A program made the translations under genes and the position numbers. From assembly GCF_000504085.1 (NCBI RefSeq), contig NC_022792.1, forward strand, positions 372,001 through 436,000: a DNA stretch of 64,000 nucleotides, given 5' to 3'. This document shows, one piece after another, positions 6,524-21,609 of this stretch (position 1 is the stretch's first letter; each line of letters begins with the position of its first letter). The notes under the pieces were generated by a model. It saw only the letters and a program-made list of their open reading frames with translations. It was not told where the DNA came from and did no database searches. The DNA comes from Pseudothermotoga elfii DSM 9442 = NBRC 107921 (lineage in GTDB: Bacteria > Thermotogota > Thermotogae > Thermotogales > DSM-5069).

Positions 6524-6552
6524 TTGACAATTTTTCGCAAAGCTGGCATAAT
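6524..6552 (+). promoter_or_regulatory. Sigma-70 type promoter of the arginine operon
   Basis: TTGACA (6524-6529), a 17-base spacer, and CATAAT (6547-6552) give a near-consensus promoter. Predicted transcription start is about 6559, leaving a leader of about 190 bases before argG. A weak ARG-box-like stretch (ATAATTTGTATGCA, 6484-6497, 11 of 14 matches to TGAATWWWWATKCA) lies upstream at the end of xylB. Confidence 0.75.
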
Positions 6553-6582
6553 TTGAAAAATATCTGAAAATTGTGGGGGAAC

Positions 6583-6669
6583 ATGAAAATGAACGCAATA
6601 ATTACAGTAATATTGAATAAAATTCAGCGGAAGCGGACTATATGCCGCGGTGTGTTTGCGCGCACTTAG
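6583..6669 (+). CDS. Predicted 28-residue arginine leader peptide of the argG operon
   Basis: A short ORF begins with ATG at 6583 (a second in-frame ATG at 6589) after the ribosome site GTGGGGGA and ends at TAG 6667-6669. Its second half reads [14 protein letters not shown], with arginine codons CGG (6628), CGG (6634), CGC (6646) and CGC (6661). Neighbouring genes overwhelmingly use AGA/AGG, so four CGN codons among the last thirteen stand out. It lies between the promoter and a terminator upstream of argG. Ile is also frequent in its first half. The role, ribosome stalling on arginyl-tRNA shortage, is inferred from architecture alone. Confidence 0.6.
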
Positions 6670-6697
6670 TTCATTCGTGCTTTCTGCACAACGCGGC
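6644..6697 (+). promoter_or_regulatory. Candidate antiterminator hairpin in the arg leader
   Basis: GCCGCGGTGTG (6644-6654) pairs with CACAACGCGGC (6687-6697) with one mismatch out of eleven; GCAC/GTGC (6662-6665/6677-6680) can pair inside the loop. The 3' arm shares bases 6694-6697 with the 5' arm of the terminator, so the two compete. The 5' arm lies within the leader ORF, just after the two CGG codons. An alternative GCGG/CCGC hairpin (6633-6636/6645-6648) could sequester the 5' arm. Confidence 0.55.
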
Positions 6698-6728
6698 CAT
6701 ATCAAAATTGATATGGCCGTTTTTTTTT
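6694..6728 (+). terminator. Intrinsic terminator (attenuator) before argG
   Basis: CGGCCATATCA (6694-6704) and TGATATGGCCG (6709-6719) form a perfect 11-bp stem with loop AAAT, directly followed by nine T (6720-6728). It is downstream of the operon promoter and only 24 bases before argG, so it must be overridden for the operon to be expressed. Confidence 0.88.
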
Positions 6729-6752: not shown

Positions 6753-8030
6753 ATGAAAAAAGTGATTCTTGCCTACAGTGGAGGATTGGACACATCGGTT
6801 ATTTTAAAGTGGCTTTCGGAGAAAGGGTTTGAAGTAATAGCGTTTGTTGCAAATCTTGGGCAGAAAGAAGATTTTAAAGCGATTGAGTGCAAGGCACTAT
6901 CAACAGGCGCTTCTAAGGTGTATGTAGAGGATCTGAGGCGAGAGTTTGTCACGGAATTTGTTTTTCCTGCGCTTATGGGGAATGCTCTGTATGAAGGCAG
7001 ATATCTTCTTGGCACTGCTCTTTCCAGACCGCTTATAGCAAAAAAACAAGTCGAAATAGCTGAAAAAGAAAATGCAGCTTTTGTTGCGCATGGTGCAACC
7101 GGAAAAGGTAATGATCAGGTGAGATTTGAGCTTACTTATGCAGCATTGAATCCATTTTTGAAGGTACTTTCTCCATGGAAAGATATTGAGTTTCTGAAAT
7201 TATTCAAGGGAAGAACAGACTTACTCGCCTATGCAAAACAGAAATGTATACTGACCAGAGCAACTATTGAAAAGCCTTACAGTGAAGACGAAAATTTAAT
7301 GCATATATCTCACGAAGGGGGAAAGCTTGAAGATCCTCTCTATATTGCCGGGGAAGATGTTTTCAGCTGGACAAATTCTCCCAAAAATGCCCCGGATGAG
7401 GAGGTTTTTCTGGAACTTCATTTTCGCAGTGGACTTCCAGTAAAAGTAGTTAATCTGAATGACGGGAGTACAAAAGAAGATCCTCTTGAACTCTTTGAGT
7501 ATCTAAATCGCATTGGATCGAAATATGGAGTAGGAAGAGTTGATATGGTTGAAAACAGGTTCATAGGAATAAAATCAAGGGGAATTTATGAAACACCCGG
7601 AGCAACGATACTCTGGATTGCCCACAGAGATCTGGAAGGTATTGCTATGGACAAGGAAGTAATGCATTTACGAGACATGCTGTCTGTTAAATTTTCGGAG
7701 TTGATATACAACGGTTTCTGGTTTTCTCCTGAAATGGATTTCTTACTATCAGCTTTCAGAAAATCTCAGGAAGGAATTGAAGGAAAAGTTAATTTAATCA
7801 TTTATAAGGGCAATGTCGTACCTGTCTCTCGCTTTTCCCCGACATCACTTTATGATCAATCACTTTCAAGTATGGATGTTGACGGCGGTTTTGATGCTAC
7901 AGACTCAAAGGGATTCATAAACATTCATGCTTTGAGATTGAGAGCCCACAATCTTGTGCTCAGGAGCAGAGATCCATTTGGGTGGAGAAGGGGGATAATC
8001 GATGCCGAAATTATGGGAAAAGGGGTATGA
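6753..8030 (+). CDS. argG: Argininosuccinate synthase
   Basis: Condenses citrulline and aspartate using ATP to give argininosuccinate. The N-terminal PP-loop motif [12 protein letters not shown] is present, as are [14 protein letters not shown] and the conserved [17 protein letters not shown]. The length of 425 residues is slightly above the usual 400-410. ATG at 6753 follows GAGGAGGGGAG; the reading frame extends upstream to 6642 but through the terminator, so the later start is right. It is the first gene of the eight-gene operon and the one most directly controlled by the leader. Its 3' end overlaps argH by 29 bases. Confidence 0.95.
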
Positions 8031-9198
8031 CCTTGATTCATTAATAGAAGAGTTCACAGTTGGTGAAGATTATCTGGTTGATATGAAATTGATTAAATAT
8101 GATGTGAAAGCCTCTATTGTTCACGCAGAGATGCTCGAGAAAATGGGGTATTTGGAAAGGCATGAGTTCATAAAAATAAAAGAGGCACTTGAGGAACTTC
8201 TGACTCTTGTGGAATCAGGAAAATTTTGTATCGACCCGGAAGAAGAGGACAGCCATACCGCCATAGAAAACTTTCTCGTTCAAAAACTTGGAGAAGCTGG
8301 GAAAAAAATACACACGGCTCGATCGAGAAACGATCAGGTTTTGACTGCCCTCAGGCTCCTGTATAAAGATGAATTAAAAGATGTATGCCGGCATTTAAAA
8401 GGCTTGAGGTCTGTTTTGAGAAATTTTGCAAAAAAGTATGGACATATAAAATTTGCCGGTTTCACGCATACAAGAAAAGCTATGCCAGCCAATTTCAGAA
8501 TGTGGGGCATGGCACTTTGTGATGCTTTGAAAGACGATGAGATCATGATAAATCTTACAATCAGACTGATAGATCAATCTCCACTTGGTACAGGTGCCGG
8601 TTATGGAGTTCCTATCAAAATAGACAGAAATTATATAGCTAATAGGCTCGGTTTTTCAAAAGTGCAGCGAAATCCCATTTATTCTCAAAACAGCAGAGCA
8701 AAATTTGATTATCTTATATTGCACTGTTTGTCGCAGGTCAGTTACGATTTGAATAGGTTTGCCAGCGATATTATTTTCTTCTCTCTACCAGATATCGGAT
8801 ATCTGATTATTCCAGAAAACCTGTGTACAGGAAGTTCAATAATGCCCCAGAAGATGAATCCAGATCCTGTAGAACTTGTAAGGGCGTATCATAGCAGGAT
8901 AATATCGAAAGCTCTGGAATCTGCGTTGATTTCAATGAATTTGATAAGCGGTTATCATCGAGATATGCAACTGTTGAAAATAACCGTGCTGGAGACTTTC
9001 AAAGATATTAAAGATATGCTGCGGGTCACGTGCAGGATTTTTGAAAAAATTCAGGTAAATGGCAATAAATGTAAAGAAAGTCTCACCGAAGAAGTTATGG
9101 CCACTCAGGAAGTGTATCGCTTATTGATGGAAAAAGGAATGTCTTTCAGAGATGCTTACAGAGTTGTTGCTGAAAAGTACGGAAGTGACAGGAAATGA
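8002..9198 (+). CDS. argH: Argininosuccinate lyase
   Basis: Cleaves argininosuccinate to arginine and fumarate. SRNDQV near residue 110 and the fumarase/aspartase signature [16 protein letters not shown] near residue 280 carry the active-site Ser loop. At 398 residues it is about 60 shorter than the 455-465 of common bacterial ArgH; the missing part is the C-terminal domain, while the catalytic core is intact. The start lies inside argG (29-base overlap), preceded by AGAAGGGGGA, and the stop overlaps argC, so the genes are translationally coupled. Confidence 0.93.
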
Positions 9199-10220
9199 AA
9201 ATAAGAGTAGGAATTCTTGGTGCAACAGGTTATACAGGGTTAGAGTTATTGAGAATGCTCAAAAATCACCCACAGGTGAAAATAACCTATCTCTCGTCAA
9301 ACAATTTTTCAGGACAGTCCATGAAAGATATATACCCGTTCGCAGAGATCGACATTTTGCTTAGCAAGATTGATGTGAAAGAAATAAAAGCAAATTGCGA
9401 TGTAGTTTTTACAGCCCTACCGGCAGGTATCAGTTATGACATAGTGAAGAGTTTGAGAGATGAGAACCTGAAAATAATAGATCTGGGAGCAGATTTGAGA
9501 TTTGATGATCCATCGCTGTATGAAAAGTGGTATGGCAGAACATTGCAAGATTATGGGTTGATAAAAAGAGTTTACGGCCTGCCTGAACTTTACAGATCAG
9601 AAATAAAAGAATCGCGTTTTATAGGAAATCCGGGATGCTATCCAACGAGTATACTTCTCGCAACTGCCCCAATTTTGAAAAGAAAACTGCTGGTGAACGG
9701 TGAAATAATTGTGGATTCTAAATCAGGCGTATCTGGTGCTGGTAAAAAAGAGGAGCTCGCATATTCTTTTTGTGAAATCGATGGTAGCTTAAAACCTTAC
9801 AGTGTCATAAACCACAAGCATGTTCCTGAGATACAGGAGCAGATGAAAAAAATCTATCACAGCGAAGTTACTGTCATATTTGCTCCACATCTTGTTCCAA
9901 TGGTCAGGGGTATATTGAGCACAATTTATCTAAAAACAAGATTGAGTGCTGACGAACTTTATGGACTATACAGTGAATTTTACAGAGATGAGTACTTTGT
10001 TCATGTACTAAAGCCAGCCATTTACCCGTCAACAAAATGGTCATATGGTTCAAACCACGTTTTTATATCAATGAAAAAGGACGAAAGAACAGATACAGCT
10101 GTATTGATATCTGTACTGGATAATCTTGTCAAAGGGGCATCCGGTCAGGCTATTCAGAATATGAACATACTTTTTTCTTTGAGAGAAGACACAGGATTGA
10201 CCTTTACGGTTTATCCATAA
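9195..10220 (+). CDS. argC: N-acetyl-gamma-glutamyl-phosphate reductase
   Basis: NADPH-dependent reduction of N-acetylglutamyl phosphate to the semialdehyde, third step of ornithine synthesis. The Rossmann motif GATGYTGLELLRML is at the N-terminus. The catalytic cysteine is in GNPGCYPTS at about residue 149, and SGVSGAGKK and PHLVPMVRGI follow. The length of 341 residues is standard. The ATG overlaps the argH stop (ATGA). It sits between the lyase and argJ as in other Thermotoga arginine operons. Confidence 0.95.
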   Translation: MKIRVGILGATGYTGLELLRMLKNHPQVKITYLSSNNFSGQSMKDIYPFAEIDILLSKIDVKEIKANCDVVFTALPAGISYDIVKSLRDENLKIIDLGADLRFDDPSLYEKWYGRTLQDYGLIKRVYGLPELYRSEIKESRFIGNPGCYPTSILLATAPILKRKLLVNGEIIVDSKSGVSGAGKKEELAYSFCEIDGSLKPYSVINHKHVPEIQEQMKKIYHSEVTVIFAPHLVPMVRGILSTIYLKTRLSADELYGLYSEFYRDEYFVHVLKPAIYPSTKWSYGSNHVFISMKKDERTDTAVLISVLDNLVKGASGQAIQNMNILFSLREDTGLTFTVYP

Positions 10221-10237
10221 CAAGGAGGTTACAACAA

Positions 10238-11421
10238 ATGAATATTCCTAAGGGATTCAAATTCTCCGGGTTGCATTGTGGGATAAAAAGGTACAGAAAA
10301 GATATCGCCTTGGCATATTCAGAAAAAGAGTGTGTGACATCGGGATTTTTCACTACAAATGCAATTAAAGCTGCTCCAGTTTTGCATAATATTCAGGTTC
10401 TTAAAGAAAATTCTGAAAACATAAGAGCGCTGATTGTCAACAGCAAAATTGCCAATTCGTGTACTGGTGAGGAAGGTTTGCAAAATGCGTTCAAAATGGC
10501 TAAAATAACAGCACAAAAGCTGCATATTGACTCCAGGAGTGTTCTTGTTGCTTCTACAGGGATAATAGGAATCCAGTTACCTATGGAGAAAGTAGAATAC
10601 GGCATAGATGCAGCTGTGAAAAAACTTGACAGTGATGTTATATCTTTTGCGGAAGCTATCATGACAACTGATACAACAGTGAAGATCAGTTTCAGAAAGA
10701 TTAATGTCCCGCAGGAAGTAATCTTACTTGGGATTGCAAAAGGGTCAGGAATGATTCATCCTAACTTATCTACAATGCTCGCGTTTATATTCACTGATGC
10801 AAAAATACCATTTTATACCCTGAAAGAATTACTAAAAAAATCCATTGATAAAACATATAACATGATCGATGTCGATGGAGATATGAGCACAAATGATATG
10901 GTTTTAATGTTCTGTAATGGAGCTGCGAATGTAGAAATAAAAGAGAAAACCGCCGCTTATGACAAATTTTCACGTGCCCTTGACGAGATTAATACTGAAC
11001 TTGCCAAGAAAATAGTTTCAGACGGAGAAGGGGCTTCGAAAGTTATCGAAGTCAGAGTTGCCAATGCTCCAGATGAAGCTACAGCGAAAAAAGTTGCAAG
11101 ATCAATTTGCTCATCCAATCTTGTGAAAACGGCTATACACGGTGCAGATACAAATTGGGGCAGAATCATCGCGGCCGCCGGCAGTTCTCAAACATTTTTT
11201 AGCCTGGAAATGGTGGACCTTCACATTTCTGATGGGAAAGAAGAAATATGTGTTTTCGAAAAAGGCAAGTCGCAGGCGTTTAATGAGGAGAATCTCAGAA
11301 GGGTTTTAAGTTCAAGAGAAATTTTTTTGCTTCTAAACATGAATACCAGTAATTCTTCCGCTACAGCCTGGGGGTGCGATCTGACAGAAAAATACATACA
11401 GATAAACGGGAGGTATAAAAC

Positions 11422-11425
<4 letters not shown>
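10238..11425 (+). CDS. argJ: Ornithine acetyltransferase / N-acetylglutamate synthase
   Basis: Transfers acetyl from N-acetylornithine to glutamate, closing the acetyl cycle; family members may also make acetylglutamate from acetyl-CoA. The autoprocessing site is visible as KGSGMIHPNLSTMLAF, whose Thr becomes the N-terminal nucleophile of the beta chain. DGDMSTNDMV and the C-terminal HGADTNWGRI are conserved. Length is 395 residues, with AAGGAGG upstream of the ATG. Its presence explains the lack of argE and argA in this operon. Whether it is mono- or bifunctional cannot be decided from sequence alone. Confidence 0.94.
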
Positions 11426-14587
<3,162 letters not shown>

Positions 14588-14591
14588 TTTT

Positions 14592-17500
14592 GTGCCGAAG
14601 AGAGACGACATAGAAAAAGTACTTGTGATTGGCTCCGGACCTATAACTATAGGTCAGGCGGCTGAGTTTGATTACTCAGGGGCGCAGGCTATCAAAGCTT
14701 TGAAGTCTTTGGGGTATAGAGTTGTGGTGATTAATTCAAATTCTGCAACAATAATGACAGATCCCGAATTTTCTGATGCTGTCTACATAGAACCATTGAC
14801 TATAGATTTTCTGGAAGCTGTTATAGAAAAAGAACGTCCAGATGCTTTATTGCCAACTCTTGGTGGGCAGACAGCCTTGAATTTAGCTGTTGAGCTTTTT
14901 AAAAAAGGTGTTTTGTGCAAATATGATGTTGAGCTTATAGGCGTTAAGCCAGATACTATAGAAAAAGCCGAAGATAGAGAACAATTTAAAACGGCAATGA
15001 AAAACTGTGGTCTGGAAGTTCTTGAAAGCAGGCTTGTTTCAAGTGTAACAGAGGCCATGGATGTTGTAAGAGAATTCGGTTATCCTGTGGTGATAAGACC
15101 GAGTTTTACGCTTGGAGGCAGCGGAGGGGGAATAGCGTATAATTTGCAGGAATTGAAGGCAATTGTTGAAAATGGATTAATAGAAAGCCCAGCACATACC
15201 GTGCTGATAGAAAAATCCGTGATTGGCTGGAAAGAGTATGAGCTTGAAGTCATGAAAGATCATGAAGATAATTTCATAGTAGTCTGTTCTATTGAAAATT
15301 TTGACCCCATGGGCATACATACTGGAGACTCGGTAACTGTAGCACCTGCTCAAACGCTTACCGATGTTGAGTACCAGTGCATGAGAAATGCTGCTCGTAA
15401 AGCGTTAAGTGCAATAGGGTTTGATGCTGGTGGGTGCAATATACAGTTTGCTGTTGATACGTACACAGGGAAATTGGTCATTATTGAAATGAATCCAAGA
15501 GTTTCAAGATCATCTGCCCTTGCTTCAAAAGCCACAGGATATCCGATTGCAAAGATATCGGCTTTACTTGCGGTTGGGTTGAGGCTCGATGAGATTCCTA
15601 ATTCTATAACGGAGCAAACAACGGCGGCTTTTGAACCGTCTATTGATTATGTGGTTGTAAAGATGCCGAGATTCCAGATGGAAAAATTTCCAGGTGCCGA
15701 ACAGAAGCTGGGTACCCAGATGAAGTCAGTTGGGGAGGTAATGTCCATAGGCAGAACATTTAAAGAAGCACTTGGAAAGGCTGTGAGATCACTGGAGCTG
15801 GATATAGCCCCGAAACTTGATTTACGTAATATGAGAGAACATCTTGCCAATCCAACTTCGGAGAGAATGTCTTACATATTTGCTGCGTTCAGAAACTCCT
15901 TGTCTGTGGATGAAGTACACGAATTGACATTTATAAATAAATGGTTTTTGACGGAGATAGAAGAAATAATGAATTTTGAAAAGGTTCTTCGCAAGAAAAA
16001 ACCTAAAGACTTCGGCTCGTTAAAAAAAGCAAAAGAGTTTGGATTTTCTGACAGAGAGCTGGCAGAGATCTACAAAGTTCAGGAAGAAGAGATAAGAAAG
16101 ATCAGACACAAACTTGGCGTCACACCAGTCTACAAGATGGTAGATACTTGCTCTGCTGAATTTGAAGCTAAAACACCTTATTTTTATTCAACATACAATG
16201 GAATGGAAAATGAGACGATCCCATCAAAACGAAGAAAGATCATGGTTTTGGGATCAGGACCAAATAGAATTGGCCAGGGTATTGAATTTGATTATGCAAA
16301 TGTGCATGCCGTATGGGCTTTTCAGGAAGAAGGTTATGAAGTTATCATGGTAAATTCCAATCCTGAAACTGTGTCAACAGATTACGATATATCGGATAAA
16401 TTATATTTTGAGCCGCTGACAACTGAGGATATCCTTGAGATAGCAAAAATAGAAAACCCGGATGGAATTGTGGTCTCGTTTGGTGGGCAAACTCCTTTAA
16501 GGATAGCGAGAGCTCTGGAAAAAGAAGGTTTGAAAATCCTGGCTGCCAATTATGAGCTTATAGATCTTACAGAAAGCAGAGATAGATTTGCGAAATTTCT
16601 TAAACAATCAGGCTTAAGTGTTCCTCCTTTTTCAGTTGCGAGGTCAATCAAAGAAGCTTTGAGAGCTGCAGAATTAATAGGTTTTCCAGTACTCATCAGA
16701 CCAAGTTATGTTCTTGGGGGAAGAGCGATGGCCATCGTTGATCATAAAAAAGATCTCTTAAGTTATATTTCAAATGCATCTCTAATTTCACCTGATCACC
16801 CCCTGATAATAGATAAATTTCTTGAAAATGCTGTGGAATTAGATGTCGATGTAATCTCTGATGGTGAAAATGTCTGGATAGCGGGCTTAATGGAACAAAT
16901 TGAGAAAGCGGGAATACATTCAGGCGATTCTGCATGTGTCCTGCCACCAGTAAGTTTATCTGATGATTTGATAGAAAAGATAGAGCACCTGATTTATAGA
17001 TTGATAAAAAGCCTTAAAATCATTGGACCAGCAAATATTCAATTGGCCGTGAAAGATGATAAAGTTTATGTTATTGAACTAAATTTGAGAGCTTCAAGGA
17101 CTATTCCATTTGTAAGCAAAGCAATTGGCATACCTGTCGCGAAAATTGCAGCAAAAACTATTATCGGTAAAAAATTGTCACAACTTTTGTTGCGATACTG
17201 GCCTTATTCAACAAAAGAGAGATTGGTGAAATATGAACCTGCTCGCTCAGGTGTGCTACCGACACCGTGGCCGGAGTATTATTCTGTAAAGGAAGCAATC
17301 ATCCCATTTAACAAATTCTCTGGCGTGGATATACTTCTTGGGCCAGAAATGCGTTCTACAGGTGAAGTCATGGGAATCGGCGATGATTTTGCTGAAGCTT
17401 TTGCAAAGGCACAGTTATCTGCGGATGGCATATCTACGAAATCTTTGCTTGTTACTGTTAACGACAGGGACAAACGAGAAATTGTTCCTTTAGTCTCGTA

Positions 17501-17909
17501 TTTGTATGATCTTGGATTTGAGGTATTCGCAACTGCTGGAACCGGGAAGATCTTGAGATCAATGGGGATAGCAGTTAAAAATGTCTTCAAAGTTGGAGAA
17601 GGGAAACCAGATGTTGTTGATCTTATACGGCAGGGGAAGATAGGATTTATTGTTATAACCCAGTCTCCGAACCGTAAGACGAGTGCTGAAATCAACAGAG
17701 AAGCAGAAAACTCTTTTGCAGATGATGAAAGAACTGCTGGATATAAAATCAGAACAGCTGCTATACAATGCAAAGTGCCCTGTATAACCACAATAGAAGC
17801 TTTCAGAGCCGAGGTATCTGCTATCAGAAGACTCAAAAAGTCCACCCTGTCTGTTAGAAGTTTGCAAGATATTTTCTATGCACAGCAAAATACTCTTCTA
17901 AAAAAGTAG
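14592..17909 (+). CDS. carB: Carbamoyl-phosphate synthase large subunit
   Basis: Makes carbamoyl phosphate from bicarbonate, ammonia and two ATP. It contains two ATP-grasp halves, each introduced by a GSGP motif ([20 protein letters not shown] and [19 protein letters not shown]), with an oligomerisation region between. The C-terminal MGS-like allosteric domain begins at about residue 955 ([16 protein letters not shown]). The 1105 residues slightly exceed the usual 1060-1075. The start is GTG with GGGAGGT upstream, four bases after carA. No ornithine carbamoyltransferase (argF) gene is in the window. Confidence 0.95.
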
Positions 17910-20898: not shown

Positions 20899-21542
20899 TG
20901 ATTGTTGCCGTTGATTATGGAGATGCAAGATGTGGTCTCGCGATAGGCGAGAAATTAGCCAGAAAAATTATGACCGTTGAAAAAAAGAAAGTAATTTCTG
21001 AGATTTCCAGAATCCCCTTTATTAATTGTTTCGTAGTGGGGTTACCCTTGTCTATGAGTGGAAGGTATTCCCAGCAGACATTTAAAGCAATCGAATTTGC
21101 CGAGAAATTGAACAGAAGGTTTAAAAAACGGGTTTATCTTATCGATGAAAGACTGACAAGCAGCATTTTCAAAAATCGTGAAAACATTGATGGATTATGC
21201 GCAGCGGAAATATTCGAAAAGTTTGTGTTCTCAAAAATGAAGTTTCATGAGATAATTCCACCGATCAAGGTCAGCGATAATCTGGTTAATGAATTAAATA
21301 ACATGGCAGGTAACATTTTGATTGTAGGGCTGTCCGATACAAGACTTGTCTGCAAGAGACGGTGCATAGTGCTCCAGGAAGAGCCATATTATGCATATCT
21401 TTTCTACAAGCTTGGTTGTCATGTTGAGAGGTACGCAGACCAGTTGGAAAACTTTGCACCTTTTGATATTATCGTTGCAGGAAAGATGTGCGACAAATTG
21501 AAGGCTTACCTAAAACCAGAAGGGAAATTACTGTGCCTGTAG
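20898..21542 (+). CDS. YqgF/RuvX family RNase H-like protein with C-terminal extension
   Basis: The N-terminal ~140 residues match the YqgF/RuvX fold (16S rRNA 5'-end processing or Holliday junction nuclease). Motifs are VDYGDARCGLAIG, VVGLPLSMSGRYSQQ and LIDERLTSS. The protein is 214 residues; the last ~75 (NMAGNILIVGLSDTRL onward) are an extra domain of unknown role. The ATG overlaps the recJ stop (TAATG). The stop codon TAG (21540-21542) lies inside the following tRNA gene. RuvX is usual next to general housekeeping genes; the exact biochemical role here is not decided by sequence. Confidence 0.8.
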   Translation: MIVAVDYGDARCGLAIGEKLARKIMTVEKKKVISEISRIPFINCFVVGLPLSMSGRYSQQTFKAIEFAEKLNRRFKKRVYLIDERLTSSIFKNRENIDGLCAAEIFEKFVFSKMKFHEIIPPIKVSDNLVNELNNMAGNILIVGLSDTRLVCKRRCIVLQEEPYYAYLFYKLGCHVERYADQLENFAPFDIIVAGKMCDKLKAYLKPEGKLLCL

Positions 21543-21609
21543 CTCAAACGGATAGAGCGCTGGACTCCGGATCCAGAGGTTGCGGGTTCGACTCCCGCCA
21601 GGCACGCCA
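21533..21609 (+). tRNA. tRNA-Arg, anticodon CCG
   Basis: A complete cloverleaf is visible: acceptor GTGCCTG/CAGGCAC, D-arm GCTC/GAGC, and anticodon stem CTGGA/TCCAG with loop CTCCGGA. The T-arm is GCGGG/CCCGC with loop TTCGACT, and the discriminator G and CCA are encoded. Anticodon CCG reads the codon CGG, rare in this genome segment. Its first ten bases overlap the end of the upstream CDS. Confidence 0.96.

Follow-up and report, generated by a model that had tools for sequence, protein, structure and literature searches.

The classical ribosome-mediated attenuators are those of the trp, his, leu, thr, ilv and phe operons of Proteobacteria. In Actinobacteria, ribosome-mediated attenuators are found at trp, ilvB and leuS (PMC1262725). 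Before 2010, leader-peptide systems had been shown only in these two phyla, and Firmicutes were then added (PMC2965389). The His leader found before hisZ/hisS* in bacilli resembles the leader described below in carrying codon-run leader peptides beyond Proteobacteria and Actinobacteria, but it concerns histidine and Firmicutes, and neither an arginine case nor a Thermotogota case was found in the same study (PMC2965389). A 2013 study of 11 Thermotogales genomes covers attenuators for His, Leu, Thr, Trp, Ile/Val and Phe (PMC3766115). As surveyed, this textbook amino acid switch extends over Proteobacteria, Actinobacteria and some Firmicutes, with the same set of amino acids.

For arginine, the nearest case is orf34 of Salmonella speF (SpeFL; PMC6386406), where two consecutive Arg codons of a leader ORF sense arginine via the progress of the ribosome. 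That system has ornithine decarboxylase as its target and acts by way of Rho, mRNA folding and RNase G (PMC6386406), whereas the leader considered here has an intrinsic terminator and an arginine biosynthesis target, and no homology between the two is claimed. The Pseudomonas aeruginosa carAB operon also has a leader peptide before an arginine/pyrimidine gene and a proposed attenuation, but there attenuation is attributed to pyrimidines, arginine acts at the transcriptional level, and both sequence and phylum are different (PMC4997734). The ArgR regulon of Thermotoga covers the same pathway and is expected to act in the same direction; however, it depends on a protein repressor that is confined to one clade and is absent here. 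Our literature search returned no ribosome-mediated attenuator for the synthesis of arginine, nor any leader-peptide attenuation in Thermotogota. The 2010 attenuator survey across bacteria by Lopatovskaya, Seliverstov and Lyubetsky (Mol Biol 44:128), which reportedly touches on Thermotogae, lay outside that search, and priority is not claimed.

The window analysed here is a stretch of 64,000 nucleotides from Pseudothermotoga elfii DSM 9442 = NBRC 107921. In it the argGHCJBD-carAB genes are preceded by a leader that, judged from its sequence and from folding models, very probably controls this operon as a ribosome-mediated transcription attenuator responsive to the supply of arginyl-tRNA. Like the classical attenuators, it has control codons for the amino acid of the pathway, an antiterminator that excludes the terminator, a comparable spacing from codons to arm and a biosynthetic target. 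Unlike them, it is concerned with arginine, resides in a Thermotogota host and has no sequence match to the Rfam leaders. The arginine leader is a new specificity and a new lineage of a known mechanism; the mechanism itself is not new. A conserved arginine version in Thermotogota that lack ArgR widens both the chemical and the phylogenetic range of ribosome-mediated attenuation.

Elements of the argG leader

An earlier note on this DNA had described a promoter, a ribosome site, a 28-codon ORF, an antiterminator and a terminator before argG, and all of these can be read there (Table 1). The leader ORF starts at ATG 6583 or at the in-frame ATG 6589, which has the better Shine-Dalgarno spacing. 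Its four Arg codons are all CGN, again as described (CGG 6628, CGG 6634, CGC 6646 and CGC 6661), while AGA or AGG make up 153 of the 195 Arg codons in nine genes (the operon and the upstream kinase). The contrast that the earlier note drew between CGN in the leader and AGA/AGG in the neighbouring genes therefore stands for this operon, but not as a trait of the family, because the clusters of relatives use CGT-AGA-CGT or AGG-CGG.

Table 1. Features of the argG leader and operon (positions within the window)
Feature	Position	Strand	Basis
Operon promoter, TTGACA-17-CATAAT	6524-6552	+	11/12 consensus match
Ribosome-binding site of leader ORF, GGGGGA	6575-6580	+	sequence
Leader ORF, 28 codons	6583-6669	+	sequence; homologous peptides in 8 other argG leaders
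Control codons CGG-AAG-CGG (Arg-Lys-Arg)	6628-6636	+	aligned with RRR/VRR/IRR cluster of relatives
Small hairpin: second CGG region (6633-6636) with CCGC (6645-6648) of antiterminator 5' arm	6633-6648	+	minimum-energy fold
Antiterminator 5' arm, GCCGCGGTGTG	6644-6654	+	pairs with 6687-6697; arms co-vary among species
ORF-internal hairpin (6649-6655/6660-6666), competitor of antiterminator	6649-6666	+	minimum-energy fold
Antiterminator 3' arm, CACAACGCGGC	6687-6697	+	overlaps terminator stem by 5 nt
Intrinsic terminator: stem 6693-6720, T run to 6728	6693-6728	+	terminator prediction; conservation
argG, first operon gene	6753-8030	+	NCBIfam TIGR00032/NF001770
argH, argC, argJ, argB, argD, carA, carB	8002-17909	+	NCBIfam for argH-carA; carB by sequence/ORF table

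The arrangement is that of a classical attenuator. A predicted short ORF rich in Arg codons lies between promoter and structural genes, an intrinsic terminator separates it from the first gene, and an antiterminator that excludes this terminator has its 5' arm within the ORF; in silico, this arm is free with the ribosome at the control codons and covered with the ribosome at the stop. The antiterminator contains a single mismatch (G-A at 6650/6691). The terminator stem is the sole terminator-like site there (0.1 +/- 0.3 in shuffled sequences), and the folding of the leader beats that of 200 of 200 shuffles (z -5.2). In the predicted fold of the ribosome-free window RNA, a long-range helix (6571-6594/6669-6691) covers the start of the leader ORF. 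The hairpin internal to the ORF is a candidate pause hairpin.

In the mechanism that we infer, which supposes translation of the leader ORF, stalling, termination in vivo and a response to arginine, RNA polymerase would start near 6559 and a ribosome would translate the ORF behind it. With charged Arg-tRNA scarce, the ribosome would stall on the Arg cluster at its two CGG codons, remove the local pairing of the Arg-codon region and leave the 5' arm free. This arm could then pair with the emerging 3' arm, so that no terminator stem would form and transcription would continue into argG. With arginine plentiful, the ribosome would reach the stop codon at 6667 and cover the 5' arm, whereupon the terminator would form and transcription would end. 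The argGHCJBD-carAB genes overlap or almost abut up to the end of carB, so a single switch would govern most of arginine synthesis.

An in-frame extension of argG from ATG 6642 was considered and rejected as mechanical; it crosses the terminator, and the conserved ORF lies in another frame. Elsewhere in the window, 15 kb downstream of the leader, there is a tRNA-Arg gene (21533-21609) whose anticodon, CCG, is cognate to both CGG control codons.

Conservation of the leader and distribution of ArgR

A search for argG in 61 genomes found the gene in 24, and comparison of the upstream sequences revealed the same leader in 8 of these, the window included. A covariance model built from these eight argG leaders (hereafter R1) was run over 103 Thermotogota genomes. 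It returned a ninth argG leader from outside the training set (L034 in G069, 83 bits) and 9 leaders before argJ in a fourth family, with peptides such as ...NDRRRPCSRWIISTG.... The argG leader is thus present in 9 Thermotogota genomes of three families. The earlier note had proposed looking for the ORF, its Arg codons and the hairpins in relatives, and this comparison answered in its favour: the ORF, the Arg cluster, the antiterminator, the terminator and the spacing between them are kept in other genera and families, and the arms co-vary.

The peptides of the other argG leaders end in FSIRRRAGCRRVQVVGT (L002), SNIRRRLKGRWVPIGT (L003), LNIRRRAGCRRVQVVGT (L004), LNIRRRTRCRWVMNGA (L005), LSIVRRTRCRWVLRGT (L007), LSIVRRTKCRWVLNGA (L009), KNIRRTKGRWVQEGT (L010) and LNIRRRPKRRWVISSA (L034). 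The last residue of the cluster is Arg in 9/9 argG leaders, encoded by the synonymous codons CGG, CGT and CGA, and the first base of its codon is exactly 10 nt 5' of the GCCG core of the antiterminator in every one of them. This distance is constant despite peptide lengths that range from 22 to 34; as the sequences are related, counts of this kind are not independent trials. The preceding residue is Arg in 8/9 (AGA or AGG) and Lys in the window. The cluster therefore reads R-K-R in the window as against R-R-R in most relatives, and the window copy is thus the furthest diverged of the argG leaders. The ORF varies in its N-terminal half, while towards the C-terminus a motif, (R)RR...[C/G]RWV...G(T/A)*, is conserved to the stop.

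The terminator (GGCCATATC...GATATGGCC) is invariant in the 8 aligned argG leaders and present in L034 too. An 11/12 promoter lies 171-194 nt 5' of the terminator in 8/9 argG leaders, and the three elements (promoter, ORF, terminator) remain linked in front of argG while the genes further upstream are unrelated among relatives. Might the terminator only insulate the operon from upstream transcription, or lower its level constitutively, with the ORF there by chance? Its position between a sugar kinase (xylulokinase) gene and argG would suit such a role, but conservation of the ORF and antiterminator makes this extremely improbable, and an insulating terminator for the upstream xylulokinase gene is rejected on two grounds: the terminator lies downstream of the promoter of the operon itself, and relatives have other genes upstream. 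A scan of all prokaryote genomes with the terminator sequence gave 41 stretches, of which only 3 score as full leaders, all in Thermotogota. The others look like chance stem matches, occurrence beyond Thermotogota being judged from this terminator scan only.

Strong conservation of the RNA, of the terminator most of all, would also be expected if a metabolite riboswitch, a T-box or an RNA-binding protein acted on the leader RNA and the ORF were incidental. This is very unlikely. A search of the window with Rfam matched tRNA only, with no His, Trp, Leu or Thr leader at gathering score and no T-box model. Moreover, synonymous codons preserve Arg at a fixed spacing in an ORF whose N-terminal half is variable, and in other members of the wider family (see below) the control codons fit the apparent downstream pathway.

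Repression by ArgR, which the earlier note gave as the known control of arginine genes in Thermotogota, proved to be of narrow distribution. ArgR (PF02863) is present in 8/103 Thermotogota genomes, all from two genera of one family. A PF02863 profile search found no ArgR in the genome of the window, and a control search detected the domain in T. maritima. ArgR is absent from all 18 leader genomes, and the leader is absent from all 8 ArgR genomes. With ArgJ as the marker (30 genomes), 18 have the leader without ArgR, 8 have ArgR without the leader and 4, from arginine prototrophs, have neither (Fisher p 8e-5), an exclusion that is weak as independent evidence since all ArgR fall in a single clade.

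That ArgR might nevertheless repress the promoter, as in Thermotoga, was suggested by the palindrome TTGAATAAAATTCAG at 6612-6626, inside the leader ORF. This sequence resembles an ARG box but lacks one base of the spacing known for such boxes. With no ArgR in the window genome or in any other leader-bearing genome, and with the palindrome not seen in the other leaders, such repression can be given almost no credence, unless an unrelated protein stands in for ArgR. In the absence of ArgR from the genome the resemblance is treated as fortuitous, and the palindrome as chance or relic.

Antiterminator pairing and ribosome position

If both the ORF and the RNA are conserved, which of them accounts for the C-terminus of the peptide? 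After GCCG, the arm carries GU in leaders whose peptide has RW, CC in those with RR, and CG in the window, whose peptide has RG; the 3' arms of the antiterminator show the corresponding changes in the CC and CG forms. RNAalifold gave only a weak covariation signal on eight sequences because its consensus picks the nearly invariant terminator, and an arm-swap test was used in its place. Cognate arms paired with a mean of -23.6 kcal/mol, as against -19.3 kcal/mol for swapped arms, and among the permutations of arms from seven distinct leaders only 2 of 5040 paired as well as the native set. The C-terminal residues follow the pairing of the arm, so the RNA explains part of the conservation of the peptide.

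This bears on a further possibility, namely that free arginine, or a metabolite related to it, is detected by the conserved peptide inside the ribosome tunnel; translation would then arrest, and the RNA switch would follow. SpeFL, TnaC and the fungal arginine attenuator peptide arrest translation through the nascent peptide, and peptide-sensing leaders for basic amino acids have known precedents; the motif conserved to the stop would fit with these. However, its C-terminal residues (RW, RR, RG) change with the antiterminator pairing, Lys is tolerated inside the cluster of the window, and the equivalent position in related leaders is taken by Lys, His or Trp codons, a pattern that fits codon sensing. 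Arrest 5' of the arm by excess arginine would also turn biosynthesis on when it is not needed. Nascent-peptide arrest is consequently unlikely.

For attenuation by arginyl-tRNA supply, the position of the ribosome was modelled by masking the RNA up to a point 13 nt past the first base of the A-site codon; the unmasked RNA was folded as it would be before the 3' arm of the terminator exists. In this footprint model, for 9/9 argG leaders, the antiterminator core forms with a probability of about 1 while the ribosome occupies the first cluster residues, and of 0 one codon past the cluster. For the window, the values by A-site residue are 1.0 (R16), 1.0 (K17), 0.84 (R18) and 0.0 (T19). A looser measure, any pairing between the 3' arm and the ORF at 37 and 65 C, drops over the few codons that follow the cluster and has reached zero at the stop. 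The model thus agrees with the earlier proposal that a ribosome stalled at 6628 or 6634 would favour the antiterminator and one at the stop position would not. At equilibrium the full-length RNA favours the terminator, which means that the outcome has to be decided kinetically, as it is in classical attenuators. For three relatives the antiterminator is predicted without any ribosome. The arginine leader makes coupling of transcription and translation testable as a sensor at high temperature.

A wider family with other control codons

A second covariance model (hereafter R2) was built from eleven leaders that do not precede arginine synthesis genes (Lys, His, cationic and Val types, some with Arg among the cationic codons). 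Arg-operon and Trp leaders were kept out because the argJ leader was misaligned when all types were aligned together. Weak or misplaced matches (L044, L055 and L066) were not used. R2 recovers both the argG and the argJ leaders, that of the window included (G000:C1:378606-378727, E 8.7e-4), which places the arginine leader among attenuators that form one family across the phylum and whose control codons are exchangeable. R1 had already picked up leaders with NKKYVK, KKQVK, RKHHVK, WWW, WW, HHH and VVYIVLIL, and R2 added those with HHHH, RHHSRCG and PEPKVWP. Names of downstream genes in this wider family are readings of the translations, made without family searches.

Lys-type leaders (L041, L042, L067, L048 and L063; family f5) have NKKYVK before dapF/dapA and KKQVK before aspartokinase; the lysine riboswitch is otherwise held responsible for lysine control in Thermotogales (PMC3766115). 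The Trp leaders L056, L051 and L059 carry WWW before trpB-like genes and WW before an anthranilate-synthase-like gene. HHHH or HHH precedes a hisZ-like gene in L126, L129 and L132 of the Thermotoga clade and in L125, L131 and L135 of family f1, with the same kind of terminator, so the clade that uses ArgR has an attenuator of this type for histidine. Mixed basic codons (RKHHVK, RKHVK, KKHHVK, RHHSRCG) are found before amino acid ABC transporter genes in L052, L054, L062, L064, L119, L121, L133 and L136; RKHHVK is seen before the gene of a basic-amino-acid binding protein. These leaders are possible sensors of several cationic amino acids. Branched-chain codons (VVYIVLIL) occur in L046 and L049 before an amidohydrolase-like gene, without an explained link to branched-chain amino acids. 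In L128, an R2 match, PEPKVWP precedes a citrate-synthase-like gene, and this leader may possibly be a glutamate/proline attenuator. By the looser footprint measure, the permissive zone also reaches the control codons in the Lys, His, Trp and branched-chain leaders.

The whole set may have a common origin, to which its shared CCGGTGG arm and the cross-recovery between the models both point. We lean, with some reserve, towards a homologous and modular phylum-wide attenuator that has been recoded for Arg, Lys, His, Trp, branched-chain and mixed cationic amino acids and was an old main form of amino acid control, with ArgR a later replacement in Thermotoga. The recoded leaders are a natural experiment in the exchange of control codons on one RNA frame, and offer a practical means to assign amino acid specificity to operons and transporters of Thermotogota. 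Finally, one genome that carries the argG leader has a further leader of the arginine type, VNRRIKEPVGVFGE, whose arms are the same and which precedes an oligopeptide ABC permease gene (L057, G047:C5:1861-1970).
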